A stretch of DNA of 22,617 bases from a virus. The stretch spans positions 1 to 22,617 of the IMG/VR virus record IMGVR_UViG_3300018080_000622, one strand, 5' to 3'. Position 1 is the stretch's first letter, and each line of letters starts with the position of its first letter. A model generated the notes under the pieces. The model was not told the DNA's origin. It was given only the letters and a program-made list of their open reading frames with translations, and ran no database searches. Position numbers and translations under genes: made by a program. Positions 14,986 through 22,617 of this stretch are shown here, one piece after another.

Positions 14986-17900
14986 ATGGCATTTAAGAGT
15001 GAAGACATTTATACAGCGAGTGGAAATACTAAGCTATTCAACGCTTGGACTCCATACGTTTCTAAGTTTGATACTAGCTCCTTTTACAACTGGGAGCAGG
15101 ACAACCTTCCTCTTTATGATCTGGAGGAAAGAACGTATGAGCTATGGGAACAGCAAGGATGGCCCACTTCTTCTATTCCTGGACTGGCTCTTACGGTGTC
15201 TGCTGACGCTGACTCCGCTACACTTCTTAGTGAGAGCACACTCTTTACTGATGTAAGTTCAGCCATCGCTGCCATTCCAAAGATTGTAAGATTCCCTGTT
15301 TTAATTGAAGTAGGAAGCTTTGGAGATTTAGGAAAGCTAGAATTACATAATTTTAGATTTGAAGAAAACGGATCAATTGAGATTATTAATAGAAACTTTG
15401 GAAGGTTTTTATGTGCTTCCTCTATAGTTACTGAGATTGATACTCCTGATAATAATCAGTCTCAAGCCTTAGTAACTCAGGTTAGTTCCTTAGATCTTAG
15501 TAATACTTTAAGTGATTCAAGCTGTGTTCATTTAGCTATTCCTGTGTTTAGTGCTACAATGGATAGTAGATTTGGTGGCTCAAATTCTACAATGTTTGCA
15601 CATTTAAACCATAACGAAAGAAAGTCTACCTTAAGTGTAACTCATAAAAATCTAACTGTTACGGATGGACCTAATCTGTTTGGAATAGACTCAACCACCA
15701 CCCATGTCTACGAAGATACAGCAGCAACTCACTCTGATCTATCCATACCAACAGAAGATTTATCCGCTGTTTCAGACTTTTTAGATTCTATAATAACAAG
15801 AGTTCTTACTACATCAGGACAAGAAGTAAAAGGAGCTATTTATAATAACTATTGTTCAAAAATTAGTATAAAGAACTGTGAAGGTCCAATTTACATAAGA
15901 AACTTTTTTGTTGATCCTGCAAATTCCGTTGAAAATGGAATCGAAGTTAATAACTCAGAAGTTGTTCTTGAAAACTGCGCTTCTATAAGAAGTAAAAACG
16001 CTGGATTTAAATTTAGTAATTCTAAAGTAATATTATCTAGATCAGCCTTTAGTTACAGAAATTACGAACTTGATGGAGGTCTTGGAGTCACTGCGAGAAT
16101 TCCAAATAAAGGAGCTGGCTTTTTATGCTTAAACAGCGAAGTTACCTTAAGCTCTTTACCAGCGACTCTGGGATCTAGTGATGGAGCTAAAGACTACGGA
16201 GCTTCGGCAAAAGATGCCGTATTCATCGCAGCGAGAAATACTTATGGCTTTGTTTTACAAAACTCTATATTAAACGGAGGCTTGTCCAGATCAGATTTAA
16301 CAAATCCAGAAACAGCCAGCTTGTTATCAGTAGAATGTAATAAGCAGGACGGATTCCTCTTAACAAATTCAATAGTTAATGTTAAAGGACTAATTGATGT
16401 TTATAACAATGATGTAGGCATAAACTCTAACAATTCTACAATAGTAACAGAGGAGTTATGTGTAGATAGACAAAACTCAGAGGGTTACTTAGCTACAGGT
16501 TCTCGATTTACATTTGATTCTTCTGGATTCTTTACAGAGGCGGGACAGGCTGTGCGTAGTCAGGTGGACTTTACGCAAAATAAGCAGCATGTTGTTCTAA
16601 AGAGTGGTAGCATTTTTGAGTTTAAGGAAAAAAACCATATGCCAACTCTTTATGGTTCCATGAAGTTCATGGTTAGTCATGGTGCTGAAGTTTTTGGTGT
16701 TGGTGGTAAATGTTATTTACCTTCTATTTCCGTTGAAAGCGGATCTAAACTTTCTCTTATTCATCCCTTTATTGATATCTCTGAGGATGGACCTAATTCT
16801 ACAGTAGATTTTGGAAAAGCTTTAAGAGTTATTAATGGATCTGTGGCGTCTTTATATGGAACAAAAACAGGTTGTAATGCTATTGTAGGCCCTGATGCTT
16901 ATGGTAAACAAATTTTATCGGCAGGAGCATATGTAGCAAATGGATCTACGTTAAATCTTCACGGCCCAACCCTTATAGCTAAATTTGGAGTTGATGTCTT
17001 AGTAGAGGATCATTCGACGCTGAATATCCAACCTTCTAGAAATAGAACTAACAATGGTTTAAATGCTAGTTCTTTTGATTTAGAGGATACAGCTAACCAT
17101 ACTAGCGTAGAGCTACATTCAGTAAAAGCTTGTTTAGTTGCTAATAACAACTCAACTATAAATCTTCAAGACCTTGGTGATTTTAGACCAAATTGGGATA
17201 GGACCACAAACGGGAGCAATAAGCTTAGTAACGGCTATGATTATGTTGTTGCCACAATAACTCCAAGTGCTTTAGTGGCTAATGGATCATTACAATTTTT
17301 CCCAAACCCCAATGATTCAACAACTGTAAATAGCCTTAATCTCCATAAGCCCACTAACTTAACGGGTTTAGGTTCTACATCATTTCCTAAATTTACATCA
17401 GGAACTTATATGAACACCTTCCTCGTTAATGATACTCCTGTATTAGGAACTAATAATGAAACTCTAAGAGGACAAGTATCATTAGGAGGAATGTGTGTTC
17501 GAGCTTTAGGAAACAGTGTAGTAAATGCTATGAATGTTCACTTCCCAACAGGTAACGATGGGGGAGAGCTTGACGGACTGCTGTATAATGCTTCTGGATC
17601 AAATTGTGATAGGTTAATGATTTGGAACATAGCAGATACTTCAAAACTAAATGCTTCTTATCTATCTGTTAGTGGGCTTTATCCGTTGGACGCTCAATAC
17701 TATGGACCTAGCGCCGTTTATGTTTCCTCTGATAGTTATGGAACTAATGCTACTTCCTTTGATTTTGCTTCAGGAGCGCCTACAGGAACTCCAGATACAG
17801 GATCTTTAAGTATTCTTGATAGCTTTGGGTATTCTCCTGGTAATGGTTGGAGTCTTCCAATTGGAGCTAGTATAAACTCTTCTTTTACTAGATTCTTTCC

Positions 17901-18537
17901 AATGGATTTAACAGGTCTTGATAAAACCGATCTATCGGGAGCTGAGATTATCCTGGAGTCTAATGAAACCTCCTTACAGTATGGAGCGTCAGCAGCAGCT
18001 AACACAGGACCCTTTAGGCTTTATTTCTCTGTAAGTCCTGCCGCAAAGGTTTTAGCTACTGATGTTAGTGGTTACGCTTATGGAGTATTTAATGGCTATG
18101 GTGCTGGTCAACCATACGACGGAGAGGTAGGTGCTGCGTATCAGATATTCTCACAAGGTTATAACTTATCCGCTCCTGTTTCTGCTCTAAACTTAGAAGG
18201 CGGTAATTCAGCAAGTTCAGTTTATCCTCAACTACTAAAGATGAGTAAAGATACTGATGCCGATAATTTACCAGATAGCCTTGTAACTTCAGGATTCTAC
18301 TATTGTTCTGAGTTTGTTGAAAGTAATCCAACTCAATGTATGCTGGATGAATCCGCAGCGGCCACGTTTGCTAATGCTAAAAACGCATCTTTAGGAACTT
18401 CTGGTAGGCCAAAGAAGGTTACTGTATATCGAGCAGGATCTGATTCAGCCACAAATAGAGAATCAGAGGCGTATCAGGGAGATTCTATAGTAGGATTTAA
18501 GTCTTCTAATGTGTTTGATTTACGGAGAGATTGTTAA
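14986..18537 (+). CDS. Large beta-helical tail adhesin candidate
   Basis: An 1183-residue protein, no signal peptide. Residues 33-58 (FYNWEQDNLPLYDLEERTYELW) form an N-terminal signature also present in the next protein, plausibly its virion anchor. Residues about 317-510 contain seven copies of a 12-residue pattern, G-(F/I/Y)-x-x-x-N-S-x-(V/I)-x-(L/V/F), for example AGFKFSNSKVIL and AGFLCLNSEVTL; related NGS/NNS-x-hydrophobic units go on to about residue 770. Such spacing (22-50 residues) with hydrophobic alternation is typical of right-handed parallel beta-helices in tailspikes and fibres. The C-terminal 400 residues are Ser/Gly/Ala-rich and unrecognised. No catalytic signature of a depolymerase is evident by eye, but that cannot be excluded. 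Likely a surface-exposed, trimeric receptor-binding or structural fibre. Confidence 0.6.
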   Translation: MAFKSEDIYTASGNTKLFNAWTPYVSKFDTSSFYNWEQDNLPLYDLEERTYELWEQQGWPTSSIPGLALTVSADADSATLLSESTLFTDVSSAIAAIPKIVRFPVLIEVGSFGDLGKLELHNFRFEENGSIEIINRNFGRFLCASSIVTEIDTPDNNQSQALVTQVSSLDLSNTLSDSSCVHLAIPVFSATMDSRFGGSNSTMFAHLNHNERKSTLSVTHKNLTVTDGPNLFGIDSTTTHVYEDTAATHSDLSIPTEDLSAVSDFLDSIITRVLTTSGQEVKGAIYNNYCSKISIKNCEGPIYIRNFFVDPANSVENGIEVNNSEVVLENCASIRSKNAGFKFSNSKVILSRSAFSYRNYELDGGLGVTARIPNKGAGFLCLNSEVTLSSLPATLGSSDGAKDYGASAKDAVFIAARNTYGFVLQNSILNGGLSRSDLTNPETASLLSVECNKQDGFLLTNSIVNVKGLIDVYNNDVGINSNNSTIVTEELCVDRQNSEGYLATGSRFTFDSSGFFTEAGQAVRSQVDFTQNKQHVVLKSGSIFEFKEKNHMPTLYGSMKFMVSHGAEVFGVGGKCYLPSISVESGSKLSLIHPFIDISEDGPNSTVDFGKALRVINGSVASLYGTKTGCNAIVGPDAYGKQILSAGAYVANGSTLNLHGPTLIAKFGVDVLVEDHSTLNIQPSRNRTNNGLNASSFDLEDTANHTSVELHSVKACLVANNNSTINLQDLGDFRPNWDRTTNGSNKLSNGYDYVVATITPSALVANGSLQFFPNPNDSTTVNSLNLHKPTNLTGLGSTSFPKFTSGTYMNTFLVNDTPVLGTNNETLRGQVSLGGMCVRALGNSVVNAMNVHFPTGNDGGELDGLLYNASGSNCDRLMIWNIADTSKLNASYLSVSGLYPLDAQYYGPSAVYVSSDSYGTNATSFDFASGAPTGTPDTGSLSILDSFGYSPGNGWSLPIGASINSSFTRFFPMDLTGLDKTDLSGAEIILESNETSLQYGASAAANTGPFRLYFSVSPAAKVLATDVSGYAYGVFNGYGAGQPYDGEVGAAYQIFSQGYNLSAPVSALNLEGGNSASSVYPQLLKMSKDTDADNLPDSLVTSGFYYCSEFVESNPTQCMLDESAAATFANAKNASLGTSGRPKKVTVYRAGSDSATNRESEAYQGDSIVGFKSSNVFDLRRDC
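18524..18528 (+). promoter_or_regulatory. Shine-Dalgarno-like site for the 808-residue protein gene
   Basis: GGAGA lies 11 bases before ATG 18540, inside the last codons of the upstream gene. It is only 2 bases from an in-frame TTG at 18531, which is too close for that codon to be the start. The site therefore supports ATG 18540. Confidence 0.5.
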
Positions 18538-18539
18538 TT

Positions 18540-20966
18540 ATGGCTGAGTTCAATTTTAAAGATAGTAACTATAGGTTCTCTGATCCTATTAGATTTTTTA
18601 AAGCTAATGATCCCTATTATTTTGAAGTCGATAATATTCCTTTAAAACAACTTCAAGAAAACTGTTTATGGTTGAAAGATCAGCTTAGACAGTCTACACC
18701 TGAAGTTCAAAAAGTAAAAAGGGCTGATATTGATGAGCTTAGACCTTATGCTACTGGAGGGGATAGACTAGTTCGAGTTAATCCAGGAAGATATACTGCT
18801 AGAGTAAACGATGCGACTAAGTATAGACCTCTTGCCTATCTTCTTAGACAGTCGGGTCAAGAGGTTGGAGAAACTGATTCCTGGCTCGCTGCGGTTCCTG
18901 GAGAAGGCACCTTTGGAACAAACTCAACTATATCTTGGAATACATTTTTAGATGGGGCTCTACAAAAGTTTAAGAGTTCAATCTATTCTACTGGAGGAGG
19001 TCCTTTAGATACTACTAACTCTTTAGGTCTAAATGGTTTAGAGACTAGAGTTTTTACTTGGCCCGTTGTTAACTCAGACTTTGCTATCAACAACACTGGA
19101 GTTGTTTTAGATGACTCCGTTTCTTATATAAAATACGCTCAATTAAGCGAGAATAACCCAGGAGGATCAGTAGCCTTTGTTCCCACAGTAATATCACAAG
19201 CAATACTCTGGGCTAAAAGCTTTTCCTCACAAAGTTTTCCTCTATTTACCCATGAAGGGATTGAGTCGGATGGTTTTGCTAAATTAGCAAGAACTGAATC
19301 ACACTTTGTAAAACTATGGAGAGGTGTTGCTAGAACTGCTGTTGTAGATATAGACGAAGAACTTACTATTGAAGTTCCTGCTTTTAATACAGAAGACTTT
19401 AACTACATAGATGAAGATGGAAATGAACAATCAGTAGATGGTGTACAAACTAGAATTGATTTAGTATTCATTTACACTAAACCTGTAGATATGGAAGAAG
19501 TAAATATTCTTAAACCTACAGGAAAAACAACTATAACAAAACCTCAGTTAGGTATCGTTAAAGGAGCAGGTATAAAACTTAATTTAGATCCTATAAATAA
19601 CGAATCAGCAGAGAGGGGTATATGGCAACCCACAACGGATGAGCATAAAATCTTAGCTTGCCCAGCAGACCAAAATAATCCAACATTAGGATTTACAGCT
19701 ACTTCTGCTAACGATCTTGCTTATGATGTTAGAGGAACCTTCCCAACCCCAGACGATCTACTTAACTTAGCTCCATTACTTTCAGAAAGATTAGAGACGG
19801 ACGCTATCGAATTGGTAGGTCAAAGTATTCTTCCTGTTGCTTATGTGTGGGTTCGTAACGAAGGCGATTTACTGACTAATGGCAGTGTCCCTGTTCAAAC
19901 AACTGATGTTATTGATATTCGTCCATTCTTTAGAACAACAGAATTAGCTTACAATGAAAGAGCAGGTATCGCAGCAGCGTTTCCTCAATTATCTCTAGCT
20001 AATCCCGCAGTAGGCAAAGCACAACTAGATTATGAATTAAGAAGAGTTCATAAAGACTTATTAGCAAAAATACCTGTAATTGGTGAGGGTCCTTCAATAG
20101 GGCTTAAAACTGTTGCTATGGGATATGTTTATGGTGGTTGGTTCTTTGGACCCGAAGGAACTATTTTAAACTATTTTCAAAATGCAGTTTCTCCTTTAAT
20201 TACTAAACAGCAGGTAGGACAGCAAATGGGGTTTGTTAACGCACCTAATTACCCTGATTGGGATATAGGAGAGTGGACCCAATACTATGAATTAGATTCT
20301 CCAGGAAAGTATGCTGTAGACTACATCAACTATGCGCCTTTGGGCACTCCAGAAACTTTGGTTGCCGGATGTTTCTCTGGAAAGGTTAATGAGGATGGAA
20401 AAACTGATGGTGGAGCCGAGCCGCCAACAACGCTAGGTACAGCACAAGGAGGAACACAAGAAACTATATTAACTGCCGCCTCACAAGACAGAGCAATTAT
20501 ATACAAAAAAACGATATACTTTGATAGACCGTCAGACATGATTGACTACTCTGTTAACGTGCATTTAATAAATAGTATGCTAGTTTATGATGGTACTACC
20601 GAAGGAAGCAGTGATCAAGGTTTGGCAAAAAACATTTATGTTGCTAAAGAATTTAATAGATTTACCATTGTAGTTACTAATGGATTTAATATACTTGATG
20701 ATCAATACCTTGATGATATTCAAAACAACAGAGCTGGTAAAGCAAACAACAGAATGGCACAAGTAACTGTTTGTGTACCTCCTTTAATGTACTCGCAACT
20801 AGACCAATCACTTAACTCTAGTTGGTCTAAAGGTATTCTCTCTTTTGGAACTTGTTATTACCCAACTGTTCAATGGACTATGACAGGTGTTTATCCAGAA
20901 GACTCAGCTTATTATGGTGGAGTTACTGTTAACAGTCCTTCTAACCCCTTAAATGTTATTAGATAA
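18540..20966 (+). CDS. Large virion protein sharing an N-terminal anchor with the beta-helical adhesin
   Basis: An 808-residue protein, counted from ATG 18540. An in-frame TTG at 18531 would overlap the previous gene and sit 2 bases from the GGAGA site, so the ATG is preferred. Residues 24-50 (DPYYFEVDNIPLKQLQENCLWL) match the signature near the N-terminus of the upstream 1183-residue protein, with the shared core Y/F..(E)xDN(L/I)PL..L. The remainder is mixed alpha/beta with acidic stretches (DEDGNEQSVDG near 295) and shows no repeated beta-helix pattern, no signal peptide and no family I can name. The gene order (after baseplate and fibre-base proteins) and the shared anchor suggest a peripheral baseplate or fibre component. 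The gene ends at TAA 20964-20966, 8 bases before the next start. Confidence 0.55.
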   Translation: MAEFNFKDSNYRFSDPIRFFKANDPYYFEVDNIPLKQLQENCLWLKDQLRQSTPEVQKVKRADIDELRPYATGGDRLVRVNPGRYTARVNDATKYRPLAYLLRQSGQEVGETDSWLAAVPGEGTFGTNSTISWNTFLDGALQKFKSSIYSTGGGPLDTTNSLGLNGLETRVFTWPVVNSDFAINNTGVVLDDSVSYIKYAQLSENNPGGSVAFVPTVISQAILWAKSFSSQSFPLFTHEGIESDGFAKLARTESHFVKLWRGVARTAVVDIDEELTIEVPAFNTEDFNYIDEDGNEQSVDGVQTRIDLVFIYTKPVDMEEVNILKPTGKTTITKPQLGIVKGAGIKLNLDPINNESAERGIWQPTTDEHKILACPADQNNPTLGFTATSANDLAYDVRGTFPTPDDLLNLAPLLSERLETDAIELVGQSILPVAYVWVRNEGDLLTNGSVPVQTTDVIDIRPFFRTTELAYNERAGIAAAFPQLSLANPAVGKAQLDYELRRVHKDLLAKIPVIGEGPSIGLKTVAMGYVYGGWFFGPEGTILNYFQNAVSPLITKQQVGQQMGFVNAPNYPDWDIGEWTQYYELDSPGKYAVDYINYAPLGTPETLVAGCFSGKVNEDGKTDGGAEPPTTLGTAQGGTQETILTAASQDRAIIYKKTIYFDRPSDMIDYSVNVHLINSMLVYDGTTEGSSDQGLAKNIYVAKEFNRFTIVVTNGFNILDDQYLDDIQNNRAGKANNRMAQVTVCVPPLMYSQLDQSLNSSWSKGILSFGTCYYPTVQWTMTGVYPEDSAYYGGVTVNSPSNPLNVIR

Positions 20967-20974
20967 TGTGTTAA

Positions 20975-22617
20975 ATGGTATTCCAAGATCCGTTAGAGCC
21001 ATACAAGAAAAATGGAACTAAATTAACATTTGATTGTGGTAAGCTTTTACCTGGATATGGAGAGTCTGATTTTGATGACTATGACCCTCCATTAGACGAT
21101 GTTGATGTTCCAGGAACTATCGGTTGGGATGACGCAGGAAATGATAACGATGTAGATCCACAACTCTGTCAGTGCCAAATTATTCCATATGTTGCTGAAA
21201 GTAGTACAGAGTTTCTATATGGGTTTGATGGAGGACAGCATGTAATTAGAGGTTATTTGGTTTGCTTAACCTTTCTTCAAGAGTGTAAAGAGGCTGATCC
21301 AAGTAATCCTCCTACTACAATTCAAAATCTTATTTCACAATTTGTTCCTAATGACGGAAATAATGTTAGAGTTGACGGAATAACAGGAAGTCCTTGTAGC
21401 TGTGGCAGTAATGAGTGTCCTCCTATTACTATTTGTTACGAACTACCTCTTACAGGAGATAGACCAAACGTTACACCTCCTCCAGGAGGAGGTGGAGGTC
21501 CAACTCCAGGCCCAACTACCCCAGGTCCAGGAGGAGGCGGTAATATTAAGTGTTTATGCGTAGTTAAAAGCGTAACAACCAGATATGTAGGACCAACAAC
21601 TCCAGTATTTGACGATAGTGCTCCTTTACTATCTTGTAGTTCATTTGAAGTAAATGTGGAGTTAGAGTGTAAAAGATACGATATTAATAACCCAGTTGAA
21701 AATGATCAGTATATTAAGGACTCACTTACAGCGAGTATAACTAGAGGTGCTTATAATGATCTTCAAAATAATGGTGATATTAATCCACCCTTACCTACAT
21801 CTCCTAACACTTTTGATGATATAGGTAAAGATTGTTGTGAGGATGATAGCGGTCCTTGTGAGAATATTATTTATACTTATGTTGTATGCGAACCGAAAGA
21901 ACCAGTTGGAACTACTCCAATAGAGACTGGAGGAGGAGAGCCGGGTGATGGTATTATTTTTGTTGCTGATCCTATAGTAGATCAGGATTTAATTAGTGAT
22001 TTTGGAGTTACTAATGAGTCTGACCCTGGAGGAGGAGCAGGAGATGGTATTATTTTTGTTGATGGTTCTGTTACTGATCAGGATTTAATTAATGATTTTG
22101 GAATTACTGATGGAGTAGATTCAGACCCTCCACAACCTCCATTTGTTACTGCTGGAGGTTTAACTGGGGTTGTAGTTCCTCCCCAGCCACCTTTTATTGC
22201 TACCAATGGACTAACAGGAATTCCTTCTCCTCCTAGCCCTGGAGGGGGCGGTGTCACAGGAATTAGAGTTCCCTTCAATCAAAATGCTGGAGTCTTTGTT
22301 AGTACGGAAGGGAACTCAGGAGGAGGAGGAGGAGGAGGTAACTCTGGAAGTCTTGGACTTCCTTCTCAAACAGTAAATGCACAAGTAGAAGGAGACTTTA
22401 AACCCTCTAGAATTCTAGATGAGGGTATAGTTCAAAATAACTTGCTTAATCAGTCTGGAGAGATTGATTTAAATAATCCTCTATTTTTAGAGTATTTATC
22501 TAATAATGACCTACTAGCTCTTACTGATGATGATATTTCTATAAGAAAAAATAGAAAACCAAAAGGACTTGTACAAAATAATCTTTATTTAAATATCTTT
22601 AAAGATCAAATATCAAA
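20975..22617 (+). CDS. Cysteine-rich, Gly/Pro-linked repeat protein (partial, runs off the window)
   Basis: An open frame from ATG 20975 to the right edge, 547 codons without a stop; the C-terminus lies outside. Residues 30-62 are very acidic (13 Asp/Glu). Residues 65-154 and 193-305 are two divergent copies of an eight-cysteine module: Cys 65, 67, 97, 104, 141, 143, 148, 154 against 193, 195, 221, 232, 287, 288, 295, 305. Both contain an ExC-(K)-x-x-D-x-x-NP type segment after the fourth Cys. They are joined by a Pro/Gly linker (168-189). Two 33-residue repeats (319-384), three Pro-rich repeats (385-432) and a seven-Gly run (449-455) follow, then a non-repetitive polar region. No family is recognised. 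An earlier GTG (20968) meets a stop after 17 codons. Its position after the adhesins suggests a virion surface or fibre protein; cysteines may bind metal or form disulfides. Confidence 0.65.
   Translation, partial: MVFQDPLEPYKKNGTKLTFDCGKLLPGYGESDFDDYDPPLDDVDVPGTIGWDDAGNDNDVDPQLCQCQIIPYVAESSTEFLYGFDGGQHVIRGYLVCLTFLQECKEADPSNPPTTIQNLISQFVPNDGNNVRVDGITGSPCSCGSNECPPITICYELPLTGDRPNVTPPPGGGGGPTPGPTTPGPGGGGNIKCLCVVKSVTTRYVGPTTPVFDDSAPLLSCSSFEVNVELECKRYDINNPVENDQYIKDSLTASITRGAYNDLQNNGDINPPLPTSPNTFDDIGKDCCEDDSGPCENIIYTYVVCEPKEPVGTTPIETGGGEPGDGIIFVADPIVDQDLISDFGVTNESDPGGGAGDGIIFVDGSVTDQDLINDFGITDGVDSDPPQPPFVTAGGLTGVVVPPQPPFIATNGLTGIPSPPSPGGGGVTGIRVPFNQNAGVFVSTEGNSGGGGGGGNSGSLGLPSQTVNAQVEGDFKPSRILDEGIVQNNLLNQSGEIDLNNPLFLEYLSNNDLLALTDDDISIRKNRKPKGLVQNNLYLNIFKDQIS
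21475..21493 (+). repeat. GC-rich perfect palindrome in the Pro/Gly linker
   Basis: ACCTCCTCC A GGAGGAGGT, a 9-bp inverted repeat around one base, encoding Thr-Pro-Pro-Pro-Gly-Gly-Gly. No T-run follows. Adjacent Pro (CCN) and Gly (GGN) codons produce such palindromes automatically, so a dedicated function is doubtful. Confidence 0.5.
21929..22126 (+). repeat. Two tandem ~33-residue coding repeats
   Basis: Unit 1 (21929-22027) and unit 2 (22028-22126) both read GGG..GDGIIFV, five variable residues, then DQDLI(S/N)DFG(V/I)T and an acidic tail ending SDP. The GDGIIFV blocks start 96 bases apart (21944 and 22040). Near identity at DNA level in 'gatggtattatttttgttg' and 'gatcaggatttaatta' points to a recent tandem duplication in the coding frame. 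Confidence 0.9.
22127..22270 (+). repeat. Pro-rich 17-residue coding repeats (two good copies, one degenerate)
   Basis: Copies at 22127-22177 (PPQPPFVTAGGLTGVVV) and 22178-22228 (PPQPPFIATNGLTGIPS) are adjacent and in frame. A third, degenerate copy at 22229-22270 reads PPSPGGGGVTGIRV. They continue the repeat region of the cysteine-rich protein and probably act as an extended spacer. Confidence 0.85.
22319..22339 (+). repeat. Seven-glycine codon run (GGA x6, GGT)
   Basis: Six GGA triplets followed by GGT, in frame, encoding residues 449-455 of the cysteine-rich protein. A simple triplet repeat of this kind can change length by slippage without breaking the frame. Confidence 0.9.

Follow-up and report, generated by a model that had tools for sequence, protein, structure and literature searches.

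A modular, cysteine-rich virion-cluster protein of uncultured T4-superfamily phages carries exchangeable eight-cysteine modules

Introduction

Phages display Ig-like and fn3 domains on virion proteins, e.g., in the form of Hoc-like decoration. Regarding disulfide chemistry, the closest described system is the Agrobacterium phage Milano, for which disulfides, often between subunits, have been reported in proteins of the sheath, tube, baseplate, neck and capsid (PMC10811340, PMC10491603). The initial annotation of the DNA studied here had regarded sixteen conserved cysteines as unusual for phage tail proteins, a view that has to be qualified by the disulfide cross-linked Milano virions. Regarding lineage, the nearest described group may be the Far-T4 phages, for which RM378 represents the nearest isolate (PMC4360716).

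Here, we describe a gene at the end of the window, i.e., of the whole stretch of 22,617 nucleotides analyzed (IMG/VR record IMGVR_UViG_3300018080_000622). This gene shares with the Milano system that a myophage carries cysteine-rich structural proteins and, as predicted below, disulfides, but its family differs by small repeated modules and by up to 111 cysteines in one region. With Ig/Fn3 display domains it has in common that small exchangeable domains sit on a conserved virion protein, and one relative (L070) even has fn3 in the same slot; in contrast, the eight-cysteine module has neither a sequence match nor a clear fold match, and predicted disulfides hold it together. Like the Far-T4 phages, the carriers are uncultured aquatic members of the T4 superfamily with divergent gp23. 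Membership in the Milano type, the Ig/Fn3 display domains or the metal-binding modules is not claimed.

Results

Gene Layout and Genomic Place

The open reading frame starts at position 20975 on the plus strand, which also encodes the parts of the protein listed below and the 808-aa upstream gene, and runs off the window end (>22615), so that 547 aa of the 5′ part lie inside the window. A full-length relative, L002 (1158 aa, 86% identity), was found in IMG/VR. The encoded protein begins with a conserved peptide around TFDCGKLLPGYGE (21020–21064), holding C21, the single cysteine outside the modules. It is followed by module A (residues 61–154; 21155–21436), a Gly/Pro-rich linker (residues 161–187; 21455–21535), which has similar counterparts in relatives, and module B (residues 188–305; 21536–21889). 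A Gly/Pro-rich, cysteine-free spacer with GDGIIFVDGSVTDQDLINDFG-type repeats (21890–22450), evident from the sequence and the alignment with L002, leads to the start of a conserved C-terminal domain of about 630 aa (22451–22615; boundary by phmmer and HMM), which continues beyond the window and corresponds to L002:9561-11474.

In the window, gp53-, gp25- and gp6-like baseplate genes together with large fiber-like genes precede the gene, in agreement with the placement of the module inside a virion-gene cluster by the initial annotation. In relatives, small genes and then the gp21 protease (PF03420; 44/44 testable loci) follow downstream, as does gp23 (30 of 33). With gp6-, gp25- and gp53-like genes in the window and gp21 and gp23 adjoining the gene in relatives, the phages belong to the T4 superfamily (gp23 group), and it is because of this gene context that we count the product as a probable virion protein. 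The gp23 of L004 is less than 31% identical to INPHARED capsid proteins among the matches listed. No psbA was found in 23 records and hence no sign of cyanophages, though the records may be fragments. Rhodothermus phage RM378 has relatives of gp21 and gp23 (the latter by pairwise match), but neither the C-terminal domain nor the eight-cysteine module nor the 808-aa neighbor described next found a counterpart there.

Several neighboring genes deserve mention in their own right. In 49 of the 60 loci that could be tested, the cysteine-rich gene is immediately preceded by a conserved partner gene of 808 aa (18540–20963 in the window). The partner shows 35–50% identity across distant members and contains a highly conserved NDPYYFEVDNIPLKQLQEN peptide, and its Cys42 and Cys772 are conserved as well; it matched no known family, nothing in the PDB and, by tblastn, nothing in INPHARED. 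A 1183-aa fiber-like neighbor (14986–18534) has 16 cysteines (1.35%), the highest content among the other window genes. Directly downstream in relatives lies a small conserved gene with an HVCPLC motif (L002:11568-11918, L004:9382-9807), which resembles the Rad50 zinc hook only weakly (E 0.02–0.04).

Two Divergent Copies of One Module

The initial annotation had noticed the same cysteine order in two adjacent blocks (21167–21889), and all cysteines and spacings it gave are correct: C65, C67, C97, C104, C141, C143, C148 and C154 in module A, and C193, C195, C221, C232, C287, C288, C295 and C305 in module B. The segments ECKEADPSNP and ECKRYDINNP each start one residue before the fourth cysteine of their block. 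Residues 65–305 thus contain 16 cysteines per 241 residues, compared with 1.9 expected from the remaining ORFs at these loci (p ~1e-10, binomial). The best local alignment of A with B comprises only the ECKEADPSNP/ECKRYDINNP 10-mer and is not above chance (p 0.29 vs shuffles); the repeat therefore had to be demonstrated through relatives.

For this purpose, a profile HMM was built from 31 modules of other loci, including neither the window nor L002. It matched A with an i-E of 1.2e-7 and B with an i-E of 2.9e-4, in both cases over nearly the full model, and the scores of 30.2 bits (A) and 18.6 bits (B) exceeded the maxima of 11.3 and 11.1 bits reached by 500 shuffles in which every cysteine was kept in place. 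The profile matches and the cysteine-fixed shuffle control establish A and B as genuine, though divergent, copies of a single module, and their homology can be considered solid at the level of sequence comparison. The proposed duplication was consequently borne out via the family profile and not via the pairwise comparison. The second part of the claim, sixteen conserved cysteines, was not right in full: within the family, invariance is limited to C4 and C5 of each module, a core of six cysteines is usual and C3/C8 represent an optional pair.

The Family in Relatives

Beyond L002, searches with the upstream gene and with the C-terminal region extended the IMG/VR set to a large family. The C-terminal profile marks 71 distinct ORFs, and once near-copies were discarded, 55 of them offered a usable variable region; stricter near-copy removal and the exclusion of one broken frame gave the set of 51 non-redundant members used for cysteine counts. 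The family accordingly spans about 55 uncultured T4-superfamily phages, and all relatives are metagenomic fragments.

The architecture consists of an N-terminal FxCGxxLPG-like peptide (in nearly all members; a cysteine followed by G or N within the first 40 residues in 47/51), a Gly/Pro-rich variable region and the C-terminal domain of about 630 aa, present in all. The variable region holds 0–3 eight-cysteine modules or other cysteine motifs, and about 120 to 1827 residues separate the N-terminus from the C-terminal domain. Within the set studied, the eight-cysteine module was found only in this protein. Cysteine content amounts to 4.0% in the variable region, 0.24% in the C-terminal domain and 0.78% in other ORFs, and the number of cysteines before the C-terminal domain extends from one (e.g., L014, which has no module in its variable region, L069 and L073) to 83 (L041) and 111 (L126). 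In L070:11278-12441, the slot of the modules carries an fn3 domain instead of cysteine modules (25.3 bits at a Pfam cut-off of 25).

The two members richest in cysteine, of 2501 aa (L126:3379-10881) and 2137 aa (L041:11514-17924), consist mostly of some ten repeats of another cysteine motif, C..C ... Y.T..C...C; L126 had no Pfam match. At the opposite end, L089:7927-8547 (the same protein as L009) has two cysteine-poor modules keeping only C4 and C5.

Exchange of Module B

Between the window and L002, its nearest relative, DNA identity is about 81–97% in neighboring genes and 92–95% over most of module A, drops to 58–72% (about 62%) at ~21540–21900, corresponding to module B, and returns to about 93% after 21960. 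The pS value is 0.80 in B compared with 0.22–0.47 elsewhere in the gene. This local divergence together with the saturated pS argues for replacement by a divergent allele and against fast drift; module B alone was replaced between the two phages. Across the family, variable regions of phage pairs with C-terminal domains 80–82% identical are 36–56% identical, and L022 and L023, with one module each, share 67–69% identity in the C-terminal domain with the module-free L014.

Cysteines Are Gained and Lost in Pairs

Co-occurrence of cysteines was assessed in 47 non-redundant modules. High phi values were obtained for C1/C6 (0.91), C2/C7 (0.81), C3/C8 (0.81) and an extra pair Ca/Cb (0.90), while every other combination reached at most 0.62; C4 and C5 are present in all 47. 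These counts include some exceptions that look like alignment or boundary effects, such as L041_155, where the CxC is located further upstream, and the frame-broken L084. Four modules (L011_191, L091_215, L086_216 and L029_303) have lost C1 and C6 and retained C2 and C7. A set of four cysteines retained or lost jointly, as a Zn or Fe-S site would require, was not observed among these modules; losses come in twos. On the module tree, the fewest changes are 5 for C1, 5 for C6, 8 for C3 and 7 for C8; few branches are supported and the per-module pair test is underpowered.

A second line of evidence comes from parity. Of the 51 members, 48 carry an odd number of cysteines ahead of the C-terminal domain (p 2e-11, members being treated as independent), i.e., one N-terminal cysteine plus an even number; the exceptions are L023, L060 and L070. 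Control ORFs for parity were few (n=17, 12 odd). When kinship was handled by means of the C-terminal-domain tree, the cysteine count differed by an even number in 18 of 21 independent differing pairs (p 0.0015). A search for an Erv1/ALR thiol oxidase gave no match, but its control was also silent, and the result is hence uninformative.

Pairwise gain and loss and the parity of the counts favor disulfides over metal, so that of the two options offered by the initial annotation the former is the better supported: judging from the sequences, the cysteines likely form disulfides and not a metal site. Disulfides as such are strongly suggested by these data. The pairs would be C1–C6, C2–C7, C4–C5 and, optionally, C3–C8, where C4–C5 is assigned by elimination because of its invariance and because just these two cysteines are left in the L089 modules. 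For module A, the predicted bonds are C65–C143, C67–C148, C104–C141 and C97–C154, and for module B C193–C288, C195–C295, C232–C287 and C221–C305.

Database and Fold Searches

Consistent with the earlier statement that no named family shows this pattern, neither Pfam, PHROGs nor NCBIfam gave a convincing match to the family, profile searches of the PDB yielded no clear match, and tblastn against INPHARED found none, whether the query was the protein of the window, the full-length one of L002, divergent C-termini or a single module. In Pfam searches with 45 modules, only single weak chance matches appeared (best K319L-like_PKD, 0.0048, in one member), and no Ig or fn3 profile matched the eight-cysteine module. 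The C-terminal alignment had zero matches in a genome collection scan, which consequently provided no clue to the host.

An AF2 model of module A from the 45-module alignment (pLDDT 86, pTM 0.73) shows two strands, one helix and two further strands in succession, where an Ig/Fn3 domain would be an all-beta sandwich. Foldseek returned nothing at E 1e-3, and the best VIA-align Z-score, 4.7, is below the tool's own stated meaningful level. Several tail terminator and neck proteins (8gtf, 9oab, 9mu3, 9khy, 3fzb) rank among the best structural hits of module A by their strand-helix arrangement, but this is a common one, and with Z ≤4.7 and unrelated proteins mixed among the matches we rejected such an assignment as noise. 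The C-terminal domain of L002 (638 aa) was likewise modeled with confidence (pLDDT 89.5, pTM 0.88), and no clear structural match emerged from the PDB or BFVD. A portal, considered from the gene place, was dismissed because no portal was prominent among the fold matches. Absent fold matches do not prove new folds.

Discussion

The gene place and the fn3 domain in the slot of L070 point to a virion protein whose base is anchored and whose displayed part can change. We consider it fairly probable, though by no means assured, that this is a core virion protein bearing a surface-displayed, swappable adhesion or receptor-binding array that is stabilized by disulfides. Here, the C-terminal domain and the N-terminal peptide would anchor the protein to the virus particle, while its Gly/Pro-rich middle would display exchangeable small domains. 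Blocks A and B, copies of one domain of about 100 aa (predicted strand-strand-helix-strand-strand), would be closed by disulfides that may form as virions exit the reducing cytoplasm. Swapped between phages, the domains would most likely bind ligands on the host surface, as is thought for displayed Ig/Fn3 domains. We have moderate to weak confidence in when oxidation occurs, in the presence of the protein in the virion, in its exposure at the surface and in the binding of ligands; adhesion to the host surface is our inference, and no ligand or lectin fold was found.

Several alternative explanations were weighed against this proposal. The CxC and the CxGxC-like pair resemble metal knuckles, and the cytoplasm where virions assemble is reducing; C1, C2, C6 and C7 (CxC ... 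CxxxC) could accordingly hold one zinc or iron, with the other cysteines being structural. However, the four modules that drop C1/C6 and retain C2/C7 would be left with half a site, C3/C8 and the extra pair are also gained and lost in twos, and total counts shift by even numbers, which makes a metal site very unlikely. Regarding the blocks as low-constraint linker domains, with a quickly evolving B and no exchange, would suit the many pairs in which C-terminal domains are 60–80% identical and variable regions about 30–40%. Low constraint would not be expected to saturate pS in B and leave the flanks as they are, and we give drift an even slimmer chance.

A further option is a mechanical role, in which the disulfide-rich region would act as ligand-free armor or spacer that stiffens or cross-links the particle as in Milano, whose virions are stabilized by disulfides. 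The lone conserved N-terminal cysteine is compatible with an inter-subunit disulfide and could cross-link to a neighbor, and the C-terminal domain is retained while the modules vary freely. Parity and co-loss agree with Milano-type pairing in that both speak for disulfides at the sequence level. Yet, the Milano network is largely between subunits, whereas the parity seen in this family implies that the pairs are closed inside the region, and armor would leave module exchange and the fn3 replacement unexplained; overall, we judge a purely mechanical function unlikely.

Because tailed phages assemble in the reducing cytoplasm, a core virion protein with 0 to 110 apparently paired cysteines beside one lone cysteine is unexpected. 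In view of the Milano precedent, disulfide chemistry in a tailed phage has been described before, and the novelty lies in the small closed domains, in their exchange and in how numerous they are. More tentatively, and as a reading that we consider less likely than not, the family could represent a new class of host-range modules, i.e., disulfide-closed domains on a conserved virion protein that uncultured T4-like phages exchange with one another as cassettes, with 0 to about 55 predicted disulfides (111 cysteines) and an unpaired N-terminal cysteine covalently linked to the particle.

With the odd-count rule, metagenomic data can be tested for disulfide pairing in a simple way. If confirmed, the array described in this study would yield a new domain family along with a disulfide map that can be tested, and for uncultured aquatic phages it would be a candidate determinant of host range that is readable from sequence alone.
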